From NCBI GenBank assembly GCA_011525015.1, contig WTJC01000037.1, forward strand, positions 1 to 44,958: a DNA stretch of 44,958 bases, written 5' to 3'. This stretch comes from Flavobacteriales bacterium. Its GTDB lineage: Bacteria > Bacteroidota > Bacteroidia > Flavobacteriales > Flavobacteriaceae. The translations under genes were made by a program, and so were the position numbers. Shown in pieces: positions 4,887-43,995 of the stretch. Numbering within the stretch: position 1 is the stretch's first letter; the number at the start of each line of letters is the position of its first letter. A model generated the notes under the pieces. It worked only from the letters and a program-made list of their open reading frames with translations. It did no database searches and was not told where the DNA came from.

Positions 4887-6422
4887 ATGACTATGAAATC
4901 AAGACTATCTAGCTTCCTTATTATCGCTTCTTTTGGTTTTGCTTTAGGGCAACAACAATTATTGCAAACAGATCAGATTGTAGACGGCTTTAGGTCGGTT
5001 GGAAATCCTTCTCCCTATGGAGACCAAAGAGGGTTGACTTACGAGTTAGAAGACCAAAAAGCCGCATATATAGCAGACAGCATTATGCTTTCTAATATGC
5101 TTAGTTTTTTTGACAACGACAACAAGTTAGTAGACGAGTCTGATATTGCCTACGAGAAAGCCATAGACAACACCAGCCCTTTAAGCACGCAGGAGATCAA
5201 GAATAGGCTTGAGATTTTAGACCGTAAATCTCCATTCAATTTCGAGTACAACAAACAGCTCGAGCGGGTGATTGTTCATTATTTAAAAGACAAGCGTCCG
5301 TTTTTAGAGCGCATGATGACTTTGAGTCAGTTTTATTTTCCCTTGTTTGAGCAAGAGCTAGACAAGAGTGATTTACCCATAGAATTGAAGTATTTGGCCA
5401 TCGCAGAATCGGCGCTTAACCCAAAGGCAAGGTCAAGGGTTGGCGCAAGAGGTCTTTGGCAATTTATGTATGCCACAGGGCGTTATTTCGGCTTAAGAGT
5501 AGACAACTATATCGACGAGCGATACGACCCCATTAAATCAACACAGGCTGCGGCCAAGTATTTGCAACAACTGTACAACACCTTTGACGATTGGGATTTG
5601 GCTCTTGCCGCCTACAATTCTGGTCCAGGAAATGTGAATAAGGCCAGACGCAGATCTGGAGGCTACAACAACTACTGGAACCTTAGAAACTACCTTCCAA
5701 GAGAAACAGCGAATTACGTGCCTTTATTTATAGCTACAATGTTCGCCTTTGAGTTTTCAGAAGATTACGGTTTGCATCCTCAGCCCTATGAAAGAAATTA
5801 TTTTGAGACAGACACGGTTCACATCAAGTCTAAATTATCCTTTGAGCAGCTTTCTAAGGCGCTCAGCATGAGTATCGAAGAGTTAGAGATTTTAAATCCA
5901 ACCTATAAAAGAGGAGTCATCCCAAAAAATTACAACCAAAACAAGCCCAATATATTGCGATTGCCCAAGTTAAAGGCGGGAGTCTTTGTCAGCAATGAAA
6001 AAGAAATATACAAACTCGCAGACGCCTCTTGGAACAGTAGAGAAAAGCAGAACCCTGAACTGCAAAGAGCACAACCCGTTCGAAGTCGCTATAGAGTCAG
6101 GTCAGGAGATTACTTAGGCAAAATTGCCCAGCGTTACGGAGTGAGCATTTCAAACCTTAGAAGGTGGAACAATCTAAAGTCCAACACCATAAGAGTGGGC
6201 CAAAGTCTAGTCGTTTATGGCAAGAAGACACCCTCCTCGTCACAGAGATCTGTGGCTCAAAGCGGCTCTGTTAAAAAGGTACACGTTGTAAAAGAGGGCG
6301 AATCGCTTTGGAAAATTGCCAGAATGTATAAAGACATCAGCATAGATAAACTCAAGATTTGGAATGAGCTCAAGACCACCCAAATCAAACCCGGCATGCA
6401 GCTAAAAGTCTGCCAATGTTAA
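4887..6422 (+). CDS. MltD-like lytic transglycosylase with LysM repeats
   Basis: 511 residues. A signal peptide spans about residues 1-21 (cleavage near ALG/Q). The SLT catalytic domain covers about 160-260: the catalytic glutamate is E174 in AIAESALNPK, followed by GARGLWQFM and AAYNSGPGNV. Two LysM peptidoglycan-binding modules lie at about 401-445 and 463-508, each with the GDYL or GESL start and an N-x-L core. The order SLT then LysM is that of MltD. It would cleave glycan strands between MurNAc and GlcNAc in the periplasm. A second ATG two codons in (4893) is an equally possible start. The next gene begins 13 bases after the stop and is probably co-transcribed. Confidence 0.93.
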   Translation: MTMKSRLSSFLIIASFGFALGQQQLLQTDQIVDGFRSVGNPSPYGDQRGLTYELEDQKAAYIADSIMLSNMLSFFDNDNKLVDESDIAYEKAIDNTSPLSTQEIKNRLEILDRKSPFNFEYNKQLERVIVHYLKDKRPFLERMMTLSQFYFPLFEQELDKSDLPIELKYLAIAESALNPKARSRVGARGLWQFMYATGRYFGLRVDNYIDERYDPIKSTQAAAKYLQQLYNTFDDWDLALAAYNSGPGNVNKARRRSGGYNNYWNLRNYLPRETANYVPLFIATMFAFEFSEDYGLHPQPYERNYFETDTVHIKSKLSFEQLSKALSMSIEELEILNPTYKRGVIPKNYNQNKPNILRLPKLKAGVFVSNEKEIYKLADASWNSREKQNPELQRAQPVRSRYRVRSGDYLGKIAQRYGVSISNLRRWNNLKSNTIRVGQSLVVYGKKTPSSSQRSVAQSGSVKKVHVVKEGESLWKIARMYKDISIDKLKIWNELKTTQIKPGMQLKVCQC

Positions 6423-6435
6423 TTTAGAACCCCCT

Positions 6436-7434
6436 ATGAATTACCGATTAGTTAAATGTTTTGTTGCGGCTTCTACCCTACTTGCGGTTATTGCTTGCGA
6501 TGAGGTCTTACAACAAGAAAAGTTTCTTCCAGAATCTACAGGATCAGTCAACCAGGTTATAGTGGTAACTACTGACACCATCTGGAAAGGTGCTGTTGGA
6601 GACAGCATTCGAAAATATTTTGCAGCGCCTATTGAGGCCAGTACAATACCTGAGCCTGAGTTCACTTTGACCTTTTTGCCCCAACCCATTTGGAAAGGCG
6701 CCATTACCAAGTCAAGAAACGTATTGTATGTTTTAAAAGATACTCTTGAGGCTTCTTACATCAAAAAGAACCTCTACGCCAGGCCCCAAAATATAGCTGT
6801 GGTAAAGTCTAAGGACCTGGAAAATTTAAAAAACAACCTCATTTCGGTTGCGGAGACCGCTAAATACAATTTTAGAGAAACTGAGCTTGAACTCGCTCAA
6901 GAGCGCTTGTTGAAATCCTTGTCTTCTAAGGCACTTTTCGGGGAACGCTTAGGCCTGAGCTTAAGAATGCCTTCGGTATACCGCTTAGGAGTTGACAAGG
7001 ACAATTTTTTATGGTACGATAGACCTGTTGAGGGCGGAACCTTAAATCTTATGGCATACAGCCTAGAAAAAGGCTATTTTTCTGACAGTGAAACTTTCGT
7101 CGATCGAATTTTGAGTTTACGTGATAGCATAGGTGAAAAGTATGTGCCTGGCCCTGATGTGCCCGGAGCTGTCACGTATATGATTTCAGAGCGCACTTTT
7201 GCACCATATGTAAGGCCAACTGAGGTTGGAGGGTTTAAAGCTGTTGAGGTAAAGGGAATTTGGGAAGTGCAGAACTACCCTATGGCAGGGCCTTATTTGA
7301 TGTACCTTGTCAATGACACCGTAAACAGGCGCACCGTTGTTTTGGAAGGATTTACCTTCGCTCCATCAAAGCCAAAAAGAGACTTTATGTTTGAATTAGA
7401 GGCAATTATGAAATCGATTGAAATTACCGAATAA
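6436..7434 (+). CDS. DUF4837 family lipoprotein
   Basis: 332 residues. The N-terminus is a lipoprotein signal with VIAC, lipidated Cys about 21. The rest matches my recollection of DUF4837: a QVIVVTTDTIWKG strand, an RNVLYVL segment, a long amphipathic helix around residues 135-165, and a C-terminal half with MAGPYLMYLVND and VVLEGFTFAP. No catalytic motif is evident. It follows the lytic transglycosylase gene by 13 bases, so a role in the cell envelope is a reasonable inference. Its stop is two bases from the tatA stop on the other strand. Confidence 0.85.
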   Translation: MNYRLVKCFVAASTLLAVIACDEVLQQEKFLPESTGSVNQVIVVTTDTIWKGAVGDSIRKYFAAPIEASTIPEPEFTLTFLPQPIWKGAITKSRNVLYVLKDTLEASYIKKNLYARPQNIAVVKSKDLENLKNNLISVAETAKYNFRETELELAQERLLKSLSSKALFGERLGLSLRMPSVYRLGVDKDNFLWYDRPVEGGTLNLMAYSLEKGYFSDSETFVDRILSLRDSIGEKYVPGPDVPGAVTYMISERTFAPYVRPTEVGGFKAVEVKGIWEVQNYPMAGPYLMYLVNDTVNRRTVVLEGFTFAPSKPKRDFMFELEAIMKSIEITE

Positions 7435-36009: not shown

Positions 36010-36321
36010 TTACTGTTTGGCAAAAAAGAAGTTTTGAAATCGTTCCACAAATGAATTTGATCTGCGTCTTTGAAAAGCTAAGTTTACACCTCTACAAACT
36101 CCCTCCTGTGAAACAGGATAATGGGCTTGAACCGCTTGAACGACCTTGCTGTAATCATTGTCGTAGAGTTGTAATACAGCCTCTTTCATTCGAGAACCAT
36201 AAAACTCTGCTGAAGGGATGCCTGTTTTGTCTGAAAATATCTGAACAATTTTATCAGTTTCTGAGTTTCTTCTATTTTTTGAAATCATTGAAATCAGTGT
36301 TAAAATCGTTAGTTTTTCCAT
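36010..36321 (-). CDS. Unrecognised small helical protein
   Basis: 103 residues. No signal peptide or membrane segment is convincing, though the first 13 residues (MEKLTILTLISMI) are hydrophobic; an internal Met at residue 12 is an alternative start. The rest is rich in helices with positive charges (RRRSNSFVERFQ). The spacing of the DKIVQIFSDKTGIPSAEF and GSRMKEAVLQLY segments faintly recalls the helix arrangement of DnaA domain IV, but the RDHTTV signature is absent, so I do not claim it. It faces the maleate-isomerase-like gene across an AT-rich region with a repeated motif. The antisense frame over the same bases looks like a shadow. Confidence 0.55.
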   Translation of the reverse strand: MEKLTILTLISMISKNRRNSETDKIVQIFSDKTGIPSAEFYGSRMKEAVLQLYDNDYSKVVQAVQAHYPVSQEGVCRGVNLAFQRRRSNSFVERFQNFFFAKQ

Positions 36322-36382: not shown

Positions 36383-36395
36383 AAAGTTATTAACA
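36383..36395. repeat. First copy of a 13-bp motif
   Basis: AAAGTTATTAACA; its core GTTATTAAC is an odd palindrome (GTTA-T-TAAC). It lies 61 bases upstream of the small protein gene start at 36321 and is repeated exactly at 36473-36485. Confidence 0.65.
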
Positions 36396-36472: not shown

Positions 36473-36485
36473 AAAGTTATTAACA
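36473..36485. repeat. Second copy of the 13-bp motif
   Basis: Exact copy of AAAGTTATTAACA, 90 bases (start to start) from the first, in the same direction. It lies 93 bases before the ATG at 36579. The two copies flank the middle of the divergent intergenic region, as operator sites would. Confidence 0.65.
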
Positions 36486-36578: not shown

Positions 36579-37334
36579 ATGAAAAAAAACATTAGAATTG
36601 GAATGATTGTCCCCAGCTCCAATATCACTATGGAAAAAGAAATTCCACAGGCGATCAATTCCAATCACTTTGAATCAAAACCACTTATTACCTATCATTC
36701 CGCACGTGTCGGGCTTAAAAATGTATCCCGAGAAGAATTAAAGCAAATGAATTTAAGCGCAGTAGGTGCTGCTGAATCCTTGGCAGATGCTTCGGTTGAC
36801 ATCATTCTCTACGCTTGTTTGGTTGCTGTAATGGTAGAAGGAAAGGGCGCACATAACATCTCTGAAAAAGCTTTGAGAGAAGGGGCTTCTTCTGAGGATA
36901 AAGAAATACCTGTGGTTACAAGCGCAGGAGCACTGGTACAAACCTTAAGAGACATCAATGTTCAAAAGGTTGCGGTAATCGCACCTTATTTACCTTCATT
37001 AACCGAAACAGTCTGTGGATACATTGAAGATGAAGGCGTTCAGGTTATACATTCACATTCTTTGGCAGTGACCAACAATTTACAAGTGGGTGAATTAGAT
37101 CAAAATCAATTGATTGCTATAGCGTCTAGTATGCCCGAAGAGGCTGAAGCTGTGGTGCTTTCGGCCTGTGTTCAAATGCCATCATTAGATGTTTTGGCCA
37201 AAACAGAAGAGCTTTTAGGTAAACCTGTTATTTCTGCTGCAACGGCAACGGTTTATCAAGCGATGAAAACATTGGGGATGCCACTCAATATGAATACTTA
37301 CGGAAAACTACTTTCAGGAAAATTAGAGATTTAG
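36579..37334 (+). CDS. Maleate isomerase-like enzyme (Asp/Glu racemase superfamily)
   Basis: 251 residues from the ATG at 36579; a TTG at 36567 is not used. The start IGMIVPSSNITMEKE is the maleate cis-trans isomerase signature, with Asn15 in PSSN. The two catalytic cysteines are in place: C80 in LYAC and C197 in SAC. Family enzymes convert maleate to fumarate in nicotinate-type degradation, with relatives such as arylmalonate decarboxylase and hydantoin racemase. No nicotinate or other degradation gene is nearby. The stop TAG is directly followed by the ATG of a YrdC-like gene, which suggests one joint pathway. The true substrate is therefore open. Confidence 0.85.
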   Translation: MKKNIRIGMIVPSSNITMEKEIPQAINSNHFESKPLITYHSARVGLKNVSREELKQMNLSAVGAAESLADASVDIILYACLVAVMVEGKGAHNISEKALREGASSEDKEIPVVTSAGALVQTLRDINVQKVAVIAPYLPSLTETVCGYIEDEGVQVIHSHSLAVTNNLQVGELDQNQLIAIASSMPEEAEAVVLSACVQMPSLDVLAKTEELLGKPVISAATATVYQAMKTLGMPLNMNTYGKLLSGKLEI

Positions 37335-38027
37335 ATGAAAAAGATGTGGATCAATGACGATGGACTTGTGGATGAAATCATGAAGATTTTTCATTCTGAC
37401 TATCCTGTGGTTATGTTTCAATTGTCAACAGTTTATACTTTAATCGCTCCACCTACTCAAGCTGGCGCTCAAGCCCTCAATCACGCTAAACAGCGATTAC
37501 CTGAAAAAAATTACGGTTCGGCCATAGGAAACTTAAATGCATTTCACAGACTTGCAAATGAAGGTTCTTTGCCAGAAGCATTAGATGCACCAGAAAAATT
37601 AGAAGTTTTTTCAGGGGCATTTATGAGAATCGATGTCGCTGAAAGTAATTTTGACTCTGTACTAGTTCGTTCTGGTACTCATCAAGGCTTACTACTGAAC
37701 TGGCCTTTTAGAGATGTCTTTATCGCATTAGAAAAAGCCATTAAACCTATGGTAGAACCAGAATTGTTTCAAGGTAAAACCTATGCTTCGGTGCTATGTA
37801 CAAGCGCTAATTTGAGCGGAGACCCTAAGGGCTCCATTACTGATTGGAGAAGGGCTAGAAGGTTCGCGCGAAAAAGAGCCATAAAGCTCATCGTAAGAAC
37901 CCATTCAACAGAAGATGTCTTGGGGTCATATCCGATCTTTCATTTAACGCCCGATAAAATTGAAATTAAGCGACACGGACCTGGAGAACAAGAAATCATC
38001 AGTCGACTACCGGAGCATTTGCGTTAG
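37335..38027 (+). CDS. Divergent YrdC/Sua5-fold protein
   Basis: 230 residues. I recognise the fold from three landmarks: QLSTVYTL (29-36), where the family has PTET-x-Y/F-G; AKQRLPEK (51-58), matching the KxR motif that binds the ATP/threonylcarbamoyl group; and CTSANLSGDP (155-164), the highly conserved Sua5/YrdC motif. The first motif has lost its Pro and acidic residue, so it is not an ordinary threonylcarbamoyl-AMP synthase (TsaC/YrdC). It lacks the extra Sua5 domain. It abuts the isomerase gene with no gap. A carbamoyl- or acyl-adenylate transfer onto the isomerase substrate is one possibility; pure inference. Confidence 0.72.
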   Translation: MKKMWINDDGLVDEIMKIFHSDYPVVMFQLSTVYTLIAPPTQAGAQALNHAKQRLPEKNYGSAIGNLNAFHRLANEGSLPEALDAPEKLEVFSGAFMRIDVAESNFDSVLVRSGTHQGLLLNWPFRDVFIALEKAIKPMVEPELFQGKTYASVLCTSANLSGDPKGSITDWRRARRFARKRAIKLIVRTHSTEDVLGSYPIFHLTPDKIEIKRHGPGEQEIISRLPEHLR

Positions 38028-41664: not shown

Positions 41665-43995
41665 ATGGGAAAATACGTGTGGGGAAAAGTTGAAGAGTAC
41701 TGGAAGTTTATAAAAATCTTCTGGATTGTAATGCTTTTGATCATTCTCATTGGAGCATCTTTCTTTGTCATTGCTTCAAAAGGAGGTTTCGGGCCGATGC
41801 CCACCTTTGAGCGCTTAGAAAATCCTGAAACCAATTTGGCATCTGAGTTTATTTCATCCGATGGAATTACCTTCGGAAAACTCTACCTAAGCGACAACAG
41901 AACTCCAGTTTCTATCGAAGAGCTACCAGGGCATCTCATTGACGCTTTAATTTCTACTGAGGATGTCAGGTTTTACAAGCATTCAGGAATAGACGCCAGA
42001 GGAACCTTTCGAGCTTTGCTGTTCTTGGGGTCACGCGGTGGAGCAAGTACTATTAGCCAACAGTTGTCCAGGCAATTGTTTGTCGGGGTACGATCGAGAA
42101 ATCTAAAAGAAGCTATTTTACAAAAATTCAAGGAGTGGGTGATCGCCGTGCAGCTCGAGCGCAACTACACCAAAGAAGAAATCATAGAAATGTACCTCAA
42201 CAATTATGATTTCAATTACAATGCTGATGGAATTCGCTCGGCCTCCCGCATCTATTTTGGAAAAGAGCCTTCTGCGCTCAAAATAGAAGAAGGAGCAATG
42301 CTCGTAGGGATGCTCAAAAACTCATCGTATTACAATCCCATTCGAAGAACTGAATTGGTAGTTGACAGGCGAAATACCGTTTTGAATCAAATGGAGAAAT
42401 ACGGCTACATTTCACAACAGCGCAGGGATTCGCTTAAGGCCATACCATTGGAGTTGAATTTTCAACCTGAATCTCACCGACAGGGCCTTGCTACCTACTT
42501 TAGAATGTACATGCAGAGCTGGCTTTCTAAATGGGTCAAAGAAAACTTTAAGAGTGACGGAAGTCCTTATAATATTTACAAAGACGGCTTGAAGGTCTAC
42601 ACTACTATTGATTCAAGACTTCAAGAAAACGCTGAAAAAGCCATGGTAGGCCACCTAAAGAATCTTCAAAAAGCCTTCTTTAGACAGAACAACAAAGAGA
42701 CCAATCCAACTGCCCCTTTTGTAGAATTAGAACAGGAGGTTATCGATGGAATTATCAATAGATCAATGAAGAATAGCGAGCGCTGGAGAAAGCTCAAACA
42801 GCTCGGAAAACCTGAGGATGAGATCAAGGCGAGTTTCTACAAGCCTGTCGAGATGAAGGTCTTTGATTACGACAGCCCGAGAAACGAGAAAGACACCTTG
42901 TTGTCACCGATGGATTCGCTACTGCTCTATAAATCTTACCTCAGATCGGCCATGATGAGCTTAGACCCTACAAACGGCCATGTAAAATCCTGGGTTGGAG
43001 GAGTGGATTACAAACACTTTCAATACGACAACGTATTTCAGGGAACGCGACAAGTAGGATCGACCTTTAAGCCTTTCGTATACACAGCGGCTATAGATCA
43101 GCTCAGAATGTCTCCATGTGATTCTTTACCTGATGTACAGTACTGTATCGCCCCAATGAAGCATGGTAATGTTGAAGCCTGGTGTCCAAAAAATTCAGGA
43201 AGCAAATACAGCGGTGGAAATAGAACGCTTAAAAACGCATTAGCCAACTCAATCAATACGGTGACGGCTCAATTGATCGACCGAGTGGGTCCAGGTTCAG
43301 TAGCCTCAATTGCAAAAGAAATGGGCATCAGCAGTTATATCCCTAAAGTTCCTTCAATTGCATTAGGAACACCAGACATCAATGTAATGGAATTGGTTGC
43401 GGCTTATGGGACTTTTGCCAATGAAGGTGTCTTTACCGCACCTGTGGTAGTCACGCGTATTGAAGACCGAAATGGTGTTGAAATTTACAATCACGTGCCT
43501 CAAACAAAAGACGTATTGAGTAAGGAAATCGCTTATACCATTGTCAAATTACTCGAAGGAGTTACTGAAGCAGGCTCAGGAATGCGTTTGCGACATGATG
43601 TAGCCGCAGACAACGAGGTGTATCAAGACGTGGTTACCGGTTATCCCTATATGTTTGAAAATCCAATAGCGGGTAAGACGGGAACCACCCAAAATCACTC
43701 AGACGGATGGTTTATGGGTATGGTACCGAATTTAGTCACTGGCGTATGGGTTGGGGGCGAAGACCGTTCGGTACATTTTGACAATATTGCCTATGGACAG
43801 GGCGCAACCATGGCCTTACCAATCTGGGCGAATTACATGAAGATGAACTATGAAAATCCAGAGATTGGTATTTCTATGGATGAATTTGTCATGCCTGAAA
43901 ATTTTGACATGCGCGTGGATTGTTCAGTGCCTGAACTTGAGGACGAGGAAATTGAACTCGACGACGACGATTTAGATTTAGAATCTTTTGAATAA
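41665..43995 (+). CDS. Penicillin-binding protein 1A (bifunctional)
   Basis: 776 residues. A short cytosolic start and membrane helix (about 19-38) are followed by the glycosyltransferase domain with catalytic Glu99 in STEDVRFYKHSGID and STISQQLSRQL, then the transpeptidase domain with S466-T-F-K469, SIN at 529-531 and KTGTT at 671-675. It polymerises and cross-links peptidoglycan on the outer face of the inner membrane. The C-terminus is strongly acidic ([20 protein letters not shown]). It follows gldH by 13 bases. Its last eight bases overlap the CoA-transferase gene. Confidence 0.97.
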   Translation: MGKYVWGKVEEYWKFIKIFWIVMLLIILIGASFFVIASKGGFGPMPTFERLENPETNLASEFISSDGITFGKLYLSDNRTPVSIEELPGHLIDALISTEDVRFYKHSGIDARGTFRALLFLGSRGGASTISQQLSRQLFVGVRSRNLKEAILQKFKEWVIAVQLERNYTKEEIIEMYLNNYDFNYNADGIRSASRIYFGKEPSALKIEEGAMLVGMLKNSSYYNPIRRTELVVDRRNTVLNQMEKYGYISQQRRDSLKAIPLELNFQPESHRQGLATYFRMYMQSWLSKWVKENFKSDGSPYNIYKDGLKVYTTIDSRLQENAEKAMVGHLKNLQKAFFRQNNKETNPTAPFVELEQEVIDGIINRSMKNSERWRKLKQLGKPEDEIKASFYKPVEMKVFDYDSPRNEKDTLLSPMDSLLLYKSYLRSAMMSLDPTNGHVKSWVGGVDYKHFQYDNVFQGTRQVGSTFKPFVYTAAIDQLRMSPCDSLPDVQYCIAPMKHGNVEAWCPKNSGSKYSGGNRTLKNALANSINTVTAQLIDRVGPGSVASIAKEMGISSYIPKVPSIALGTPDINVMELVAAYGTFANEGVFTAPVVVTRIEDRNGVEIYNHVPQTKDVLSKEIAYTIVKLLEGVTEAGSGMRLRHDVAADNEVYQDVVTGYPYMFENPIAGKTGTTQNHSDGWFMGMVPNLVTGVWVGGEDRSVHFDNIAYGQGATMALPIWANYMKMNYENPEIGISMDEFVMPENFDMRVDCSVPELEDEEIELDDDDLDLESFE

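Follow-up and report, generated by a model that had tools for sequence, protein, structure and literature searches.

A maleate-isomerase-family gene and an abutting divergent YrdC/Sua5-fold gene in a small clade of Flavobacteriaceae: a candidate lineage-restricted cassette

Why should a gene for a maleate-isomerase-like enzyme run without any gap into a gene for a divergent protein of the YrdC/Sua5 fold? The question is raised by a stretch of 44,958 nucleotides from a marine member of the Flavobacteriales (contig WTJC01000037.1 of assembly GCA_011525015.1; the whole stretch is called the window below), whose 2.17-Mb host genome is 92% complete. The maleate-isomerase-family gene (251 aa) occupies positions 36579 to 37334 of the plus strand, and the YrdC-like gene (230 aa) follows on the same strand at 37335 to 38027. 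An earlier annotation made without database searches (the sequence-only reading) had described the two as fused in an operon. The explanation favoured here, to which a probability of roughly 0.55 is assigned, is a lineage-restricted two-gene cassette comprising a cis-trans isomerase and a neofunctionalised third protein of the PF01300 family.

The two genes were found to be adjacent, not fused. In the window, the isomerase stop codon and the YrdC-like start codon abut at TAGATG with zero gap, and the same junction occurs in the Flavobacteriaceae MAG MED604, which together with the MAG MED603 is the closest named record by the YrdC-like gene; MED603 instead shows a 4-base overlap between the genes, and its isomerase is one codon longer. 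Because the genes abut or overlap in three species, they are very probably co-transcribed, as the operon part of the earlier description implied. The gene order in all three pair-bearing species is trpS, a 103-aa open reading frame (ORF), isomerase, YrdC-like gene, plsC and recA. The two genes to the left lie on the minus strand; the tRNA synthetase gene belongs to the Pfam family of Trp/Tyr enzymes and is read as trpS, and the divergent 103-aa ORF (36010 to 36321, minus strand) occurs at this place only with the pair. The matches of this ORF to Pfam all lie below the cut-off, among them a weak one to RecO_N, so that no confident family can be given, and its constraint is looser than that of the neighbouring genes. 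To the right, a plsC-like acyltransferase gene is followed by recA. Farther along, a CoA-transferase subunit gene begins at 43988, and what is read as a putative succinate dehydrogenase operon lies beyond the window. The GC contents of the two genes (0.404 and 0.409) equal that of their surroundings (0.409 for the window), and composition thus gives no sign of a fresh foreign origin. An Rfam search returned no match, and the Padloc and PHROGs searches returned nothing of weight.

The first protein has the maleate isomerase signature attributed to it earlier, namely PSSN (residues 12–15), Cys80 and Cys197. It matched the Pfam families Amdase (PF17645, E 2.3e-19) and Asp_Glu_race (PF01177, E 4.8e-9), and its best PDB matches by far were the solved maleate isomerases 4fq7 (E 2.5e-57) and 2xec (E 1.4e-48), arylmalonate decarboxylases being far weaker (from 2e-9). 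Residues 3–248 of 251 align with the Pseudomonas enzyme 4fq7, with Asn15 of PSSN, Cys80 and Cys197 on their counterparts; these three are presumably the catalytic residues. The likeness to the known cis-trans isomerases (4fq7/4fq5, 2xec/2xed; NdpH type) is therefore nearly full length, and it extends to the PY and (D/N)NL stretches. The difference lies in a loop that reads ARVGLK in place of SRMRMK in 4fq7; the nearest counterparts, ARAGMK in Arthrobacter and ARAGLK in Kocuria, belong to isomerases that both adjoin an SLC13 permease. The EutA model TIGR02990 gave 91 bits, far under its 318-bit cut-off, and a match to Cas3b at E 0.007 was taken as chance. In a FastTree tree of 18 rows, from which two minus-strand isomerase loci were left out, the protein lay near the Arthrobacter and Kocuria isomerases, EutA and a haloarchaeal sequence, with modest support (0.72 and 0.92 at the two joining nodes).

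The isomerase family is rare around the host lineage. At E ≤ 1e-10, it was detected in 6 of 296 genomes of the order (the host and five of one other genus) and in 3 of 395 genomes of the class (the host and two of the same other genus). Unlike the loci of NdpH-type maleate isomerases, the pair has no recognised nicotinate genes beside it; family scanning of some neighbours and reading of the ORF lists revealed no nicotinate or gentisate degradation gene adjoining it, in agreement with the earlier remark that degradation genes are missing around it. A source of maleate was sought in the host genome with a maleamate-amidase-type protein as the query, and the empty result is uninformative.

For comparison, 16 other isomerase loci were collected, five from the other flavobacterial genus (1.5 kb on each side) and 11 from 387 plasmid records (about 2–4 kb); three of them lacked annotation. 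Their neighbours included nicotinate-type genes, an SLC13 permease, a gentisate-dioxygenase-like gene (with a match far under its cut-off) or FAA-hydrolase, and other genes. No YrdC match at E ≤ 0.5 turned up in any of the 16 loci, whether the search used a profile of relatives or the profile of the YrdC-like protein itself; because the relatives' profile picks up the YrdC-like protein at no better than 0.083, a neighbour of similar divergence could escape it. Given the varied neighbours and the absence of such matches, the isomerase appears to be a generic part and the YrdC-like protein a special partner confined to one small clade. A literature search found no paper joining maleate isomerase and YrdC, and none on marine Flavobacteria with maleate.

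The family assignment of the second protein required more care. Its sole Pfam match was to PF01300 (E 1.9e-4, 21.4 bits), weak but nearly full length (profile positions 8–178 of 178) and below the curated cut-off of 25.1 bits, as was that of its MED603 orthologue (E 2.9e-4); no NCBIfam match was obtained, nor any PDB sequence match of weight. A PF01300 search over the 11 genomes of the genus at E ≤ 0.01 returned 15 matches, 14 of them above the cut-off; the fifteenth was the YrdC-like protein (E 0.004), and the MED603 and MED604 orthologues were missed at that threshold. With the profile of 13 relatives, the protein scored only slightly better than shuffled copies (7.6 bits, against at best 2.4 among 200), and the profile-profile comparison with the genus relatives gave probabilities below 14%, the alignment being too shallow. 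AlphaFold2 models built from two and three aligned sequences were of very low confidence (pLDDT 39.3 and 32.8), and Foldseek returned nothing at E ≤ 0.001 for the first of these low-confidence models. The alignment for the second model was deepened from viral contigs: two scans gave no YrdC relative, and another gave three loci, of which one was used; one of the others had no 150-aa ORF, and the other was a fragment only.

The sub-threshold score, the silence of NCBIfam and the PDB and the low scores with the relatives' profile would suit a protein that is no YrdC homologue and matches Pfam by chance, but this is very improbable, as an E value of 1.9e-4 was obtained against the whole of Pfam, for a single family, collinearly over nearly the whole domain and with the motifs in order. 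The profile search thus did not reject the YrdC fold, and the KxR and TSANLSG motifs that had been read as retained were found as KQR at residues 52–54 and TSANLSG at residues 156–162.

Nor is this protein the only one of its type in the genome. Elsewhere, the host carries an ordinary TsaC (PF01300 E 1.1e-44) and a YciO (closest PDB chain yciO 1k7j, E 9e-27), the YrdC-like protein being the weakest of the three PF01300 matches. Since two ordinary members are present, it is a third copy that need not make t6A; the earlier claim that it should not be the housekeeping threonylcarbamoyl-AMP synthase holds in the form that it need not be. No HypF-like YrdC domain was detected in the host genome by the PF01300 search; HypF-like proteins with such a domain, read from sequence, occur in two congeners without the pair. 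The three pair-bearing genomes have a short TsaC, and YciO was also detected in two of them, whereas seven of the eight congeners without the pair have a long PF01300 protein (281–358 aa frame) read from sequence as Sua5; the likely t6A enzyme therefore appears to differ within the genus.

The residues of the active site indicate what may have changed. According to PMC10321239, K56xR58 and S143xN145 of Pa-Sua5 bind ATP, and T33, S181 and R195 bind threonine. T33 corresponds to the first Thr of PTET (chain 6f87, numbering shifted by one). In the YrdC-like protein, PTET has become QLST (residues 29–32), with Pro replaced by Gln, the first Thr by Leu and the acidic residue by Ser; the acidic position is Pro in the two relatives MED603 and MED604. 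In the alignment with 13 relatives, T33 of Pa-Sua5 falls on Leu30 in all three species, and Ser143, Asn145, Ser181 and Arg195 fall on Ser157, Asn159, Ser198 and Arg213, so that the threonine-binding trio is incomplete, with Ser198 and Arg213 kept. The sequence-only reading had observed the loss of the Pro and the acidic residue without mentioning the Thr; as the substrate-binding Thr is also lost, that observation was sound and somewhat understated. KQR fits KxR if a one-residue insertion behind it is allowed: in the L-INS-i alignment, SxN was aligned and KxR was one residue off, and in another alignment KxR was in register and SxN was misplaced. The PGPLT stretch is also lost. Of the 18 positions that do not vary across 11 TsaC/YciO/Sua5 rows, the protein retains 5 (the KxR Lys being scored as lost because of the register shift); with two HypF rows added, it retains 4 of 12. 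Compared with TsaC/Sua5, the protein thus shares the PF01300 domain, a KxR whose register varies with the alignment, TSANLSG and, on the threonine side, the Ser and the Arg. It lacks the PT of PTET and PGPLT, is 15–21% identical to the TsaC and Sua5 proteins of its genus and, at 230 aa, has the PF01300 match alone. It is likely a nucleotide-binding YrdC domain with a substrate other than threonine.

Within the genus, 3 of 11 genomes carry the pair, each with the same gene order at the same site. Adjacency, proposed earlier as a check, is thus conserved in three close species, but it was found nowhere else in the samples searched, which overlap among genus, family, order, phylum and relatives. 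The YrdC-like protein is 87–95% identical among the three species. Relatives were present in 3 of 167 related genomes. Searches of 296 genomes of the order and 395 of the phylum found the host genome alone, and neither the 72,556 plasmid records nor the viral contigs searched yielded any. A scan of genome contigs, which reaches close relatives only, gave two YrdC-like loci, in the same two genomes as in the genus, so the protein could be spread more widely. Besides the host, 397 family genomes gave two weak matches that were not counted as relatives; they cover 48 and 42 residues, one in a 151-aa frame at a contig start and the other in a 1144-aa frame. At the site itself, plsC was detected in 10 of 11 genus genomes; trpS adjoins plsC in seven of the eight congeners without the pair, no plsC having been found in the eighth, and the trpS and plsC matches lie 84–88 bp apart in the four such congeners measured. 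The identity of plsC to that of the window is 89 and 94% in the pair-bearing relatives, against 48–53% in the seven without the pair.

The pair is under purifying selection, with dN/dS of 0.04–0.08. Against MED603, the isomerase of the window gave 0.05 and the YrdC-like gene 0.06; against MED604, the values were 0.08 and 0.04, respectively, with 0.03 for plsC; these values are rough because synonymous sites are near saturation in comparisons with the window. The unsaturated comparison of MED603 with MED604 gave 0.08 for the isomerase, 0.05 for the YrdC-like gene and 0.23 for the 103-aa ORF, which gave 0.18–0.19 against the window. For plsC, dN/dS was obtained only for the window against MED604, and trpS comparisons with the window were saturated. 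These ratios bear on the idea that the YrdC-like gene arose by duplication of tsaC and is now decaying, which could account for the loss of most family-invariant residues and for two in-frame TAA codons in the MED604 copy (6001–6690 of its locus). The MED604 locus contains 74 ambiguous bases, one of them inside the YrdC-like gene, so assembly error and decay are indistinguishable for these two codons. The frame is intact in two of the three species, and dN/dS for the gene over the three species (0.04–0.06) is as low as that for the adjoining isomerase. Decay is accordingly a very improbable explanation, and the pseudogene reading was rejected because of the low dN/dS.

Two further explanations assign the YrdC-like protein to a known branch of the fold. 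It could be an RNA-linked, YciO-like paralogue whose basic helix binds RNA and whose place behind the isomerase is one of operon convenience. Like YciO, it is a PF01300 paralogue coexisting with TsaC, and it has a basic stretch, with a charge of about +9 over residues 165–188; PMC12506659 describes a conserved basic surface on YciO and suggests a role in rRNA metabolism, its function being open. However, the host genome already has a true YciO, to which, as to its orthologue, the protein is only 13–14% identical, the basic stretch may lie elsewhere than the YciO patch, and reading of the ORF lists alone recognised no rnm-like gene, and so we consider this explanation unlikely. It could instead resemble the YrdC domains of HypF and TobZ, converting carbamoyl phosphate to a carbamoyl-adenylate destined for a small acid on which the isomerase acts as well, the idea put forward in the sequence-only reading. 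This would fit the replacement of the threonine-binding Thr alongside the retention of SxN and of the Thr that precedes it, a residue that touches the phosphate in TobZ and HypF according to PMC10321239; the Pro of PTET is likewise missing from the two HypF proteins compared, and the genes abut in three species. HypF and TobZ, however, carry a fused Kae1-like domain (same source), whereas the YrdC-like protein is stand-alone, with an isomerase and an acyltransferase as neighbours and no Kae1-like domain fused or adjacent. It is 18.9% identical to the two HypF YrdC domains, which is no closer than to Sua5 (17.8–20.7%), and the pairing was not detected at the other isomerase loci examined. A HypF/TobZ-like role is therefore rather remote.

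Under the preferred reading of a lineage-restricted cassette, the family and residues of the isomerase suggest a cysteine-dependent conversion of maleate or a close C4–C5 cis-diacid to the trans form, and the product, fumarate or a like acid, would be burnt in the TCA cycle. The YrdC-like protein would probably still bind a nucleotide, not L-threonine, and may activate or hydrolyse something other than threonylcarbamoyl-AMP. It is possible that both proteins act on the same metabolite, although neighbouring genes within a single clade lend a joint step little weight. A more specific scheme extends the proposal of the sequence-only reading that a carbamoyl-like group is added to or removed from a small diacid: the YrdC-like protein would use ATP to add or remove a carbamoyl-type group on a small cis-unsaturated acid, the isomerase would flip the double bond, and a fumarate-like acid would enter central metabolism. 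Adjacency in the one clade is the sole support for this reaction, which is a guess, and the scheme as a whole, for which the ureido or amide form of a short acid serves as the example substrate, is highly improbable. If it were true, the two-enzyme step would be new to metabolism.

Irrespective of that scheme, the locus presents a well-delimited, constrained and probably non-t6A YrdC paralogue with a metabolic neighbour. Non-t6A paralogues of this fold exist without a settled function, YciO being the standing example (PMC12506659). A third, strongly constrained paralogue that no longer has this contact with threonine and is linked to a single metabolic gene offers a compact test of the range of the fold, and since the isomerase narrows the candidate substrates to a small set, the question can be tested at the bench.

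The gap before the isomerase gene (257 bp, GC 0.284) contains two exact copies of a 13-bp box, AAAGTTATTAACA, whose spacing of 90 bp is constant across the three species. Box 1 (36383 to 36395, plus strand) falls within the longest stretch of fully conserved columns in the gap and Box 2 (36473 to 36485, plus strand) within the second-longest; these stretches span 18 and 17 columns, and when columns were shuffled, the second-longest stretch reached such a length in 9 of 20,000 trials. Within two mismatches, the two boxes are the only matches in the window, a number not above chance (shuffle mean 3.2), and the case for them is made by the exact copies, the fixed spacing and the conservation. Their core, GTTA-T-TAAC, is a dyad, and the simplest reading is that the twin boxes form a candidate operator for a regulator of one or both divergent genes; a regulator binding them would perhaps control the pair. 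Selection on both genes, together with the conservation of the boxes, suggests that each gene does something useful in the clade. The boxes are one mismatch away from the DnaA box motif TTATNCACA; the cumulative GC skew has no clear turning point there, and a role as DnaA boxes was not adopted. No sigma-70-like site was found on the plus strand between 36322 and 36578. The promoter and terminator scans, from which no conclusion is drawn, gave 10 promoter-like sites (shuffle mean 6.9, no excess) and 4 terminator-like sites (shuffle mean 2.4), one of the latter overlapping the plsC start.
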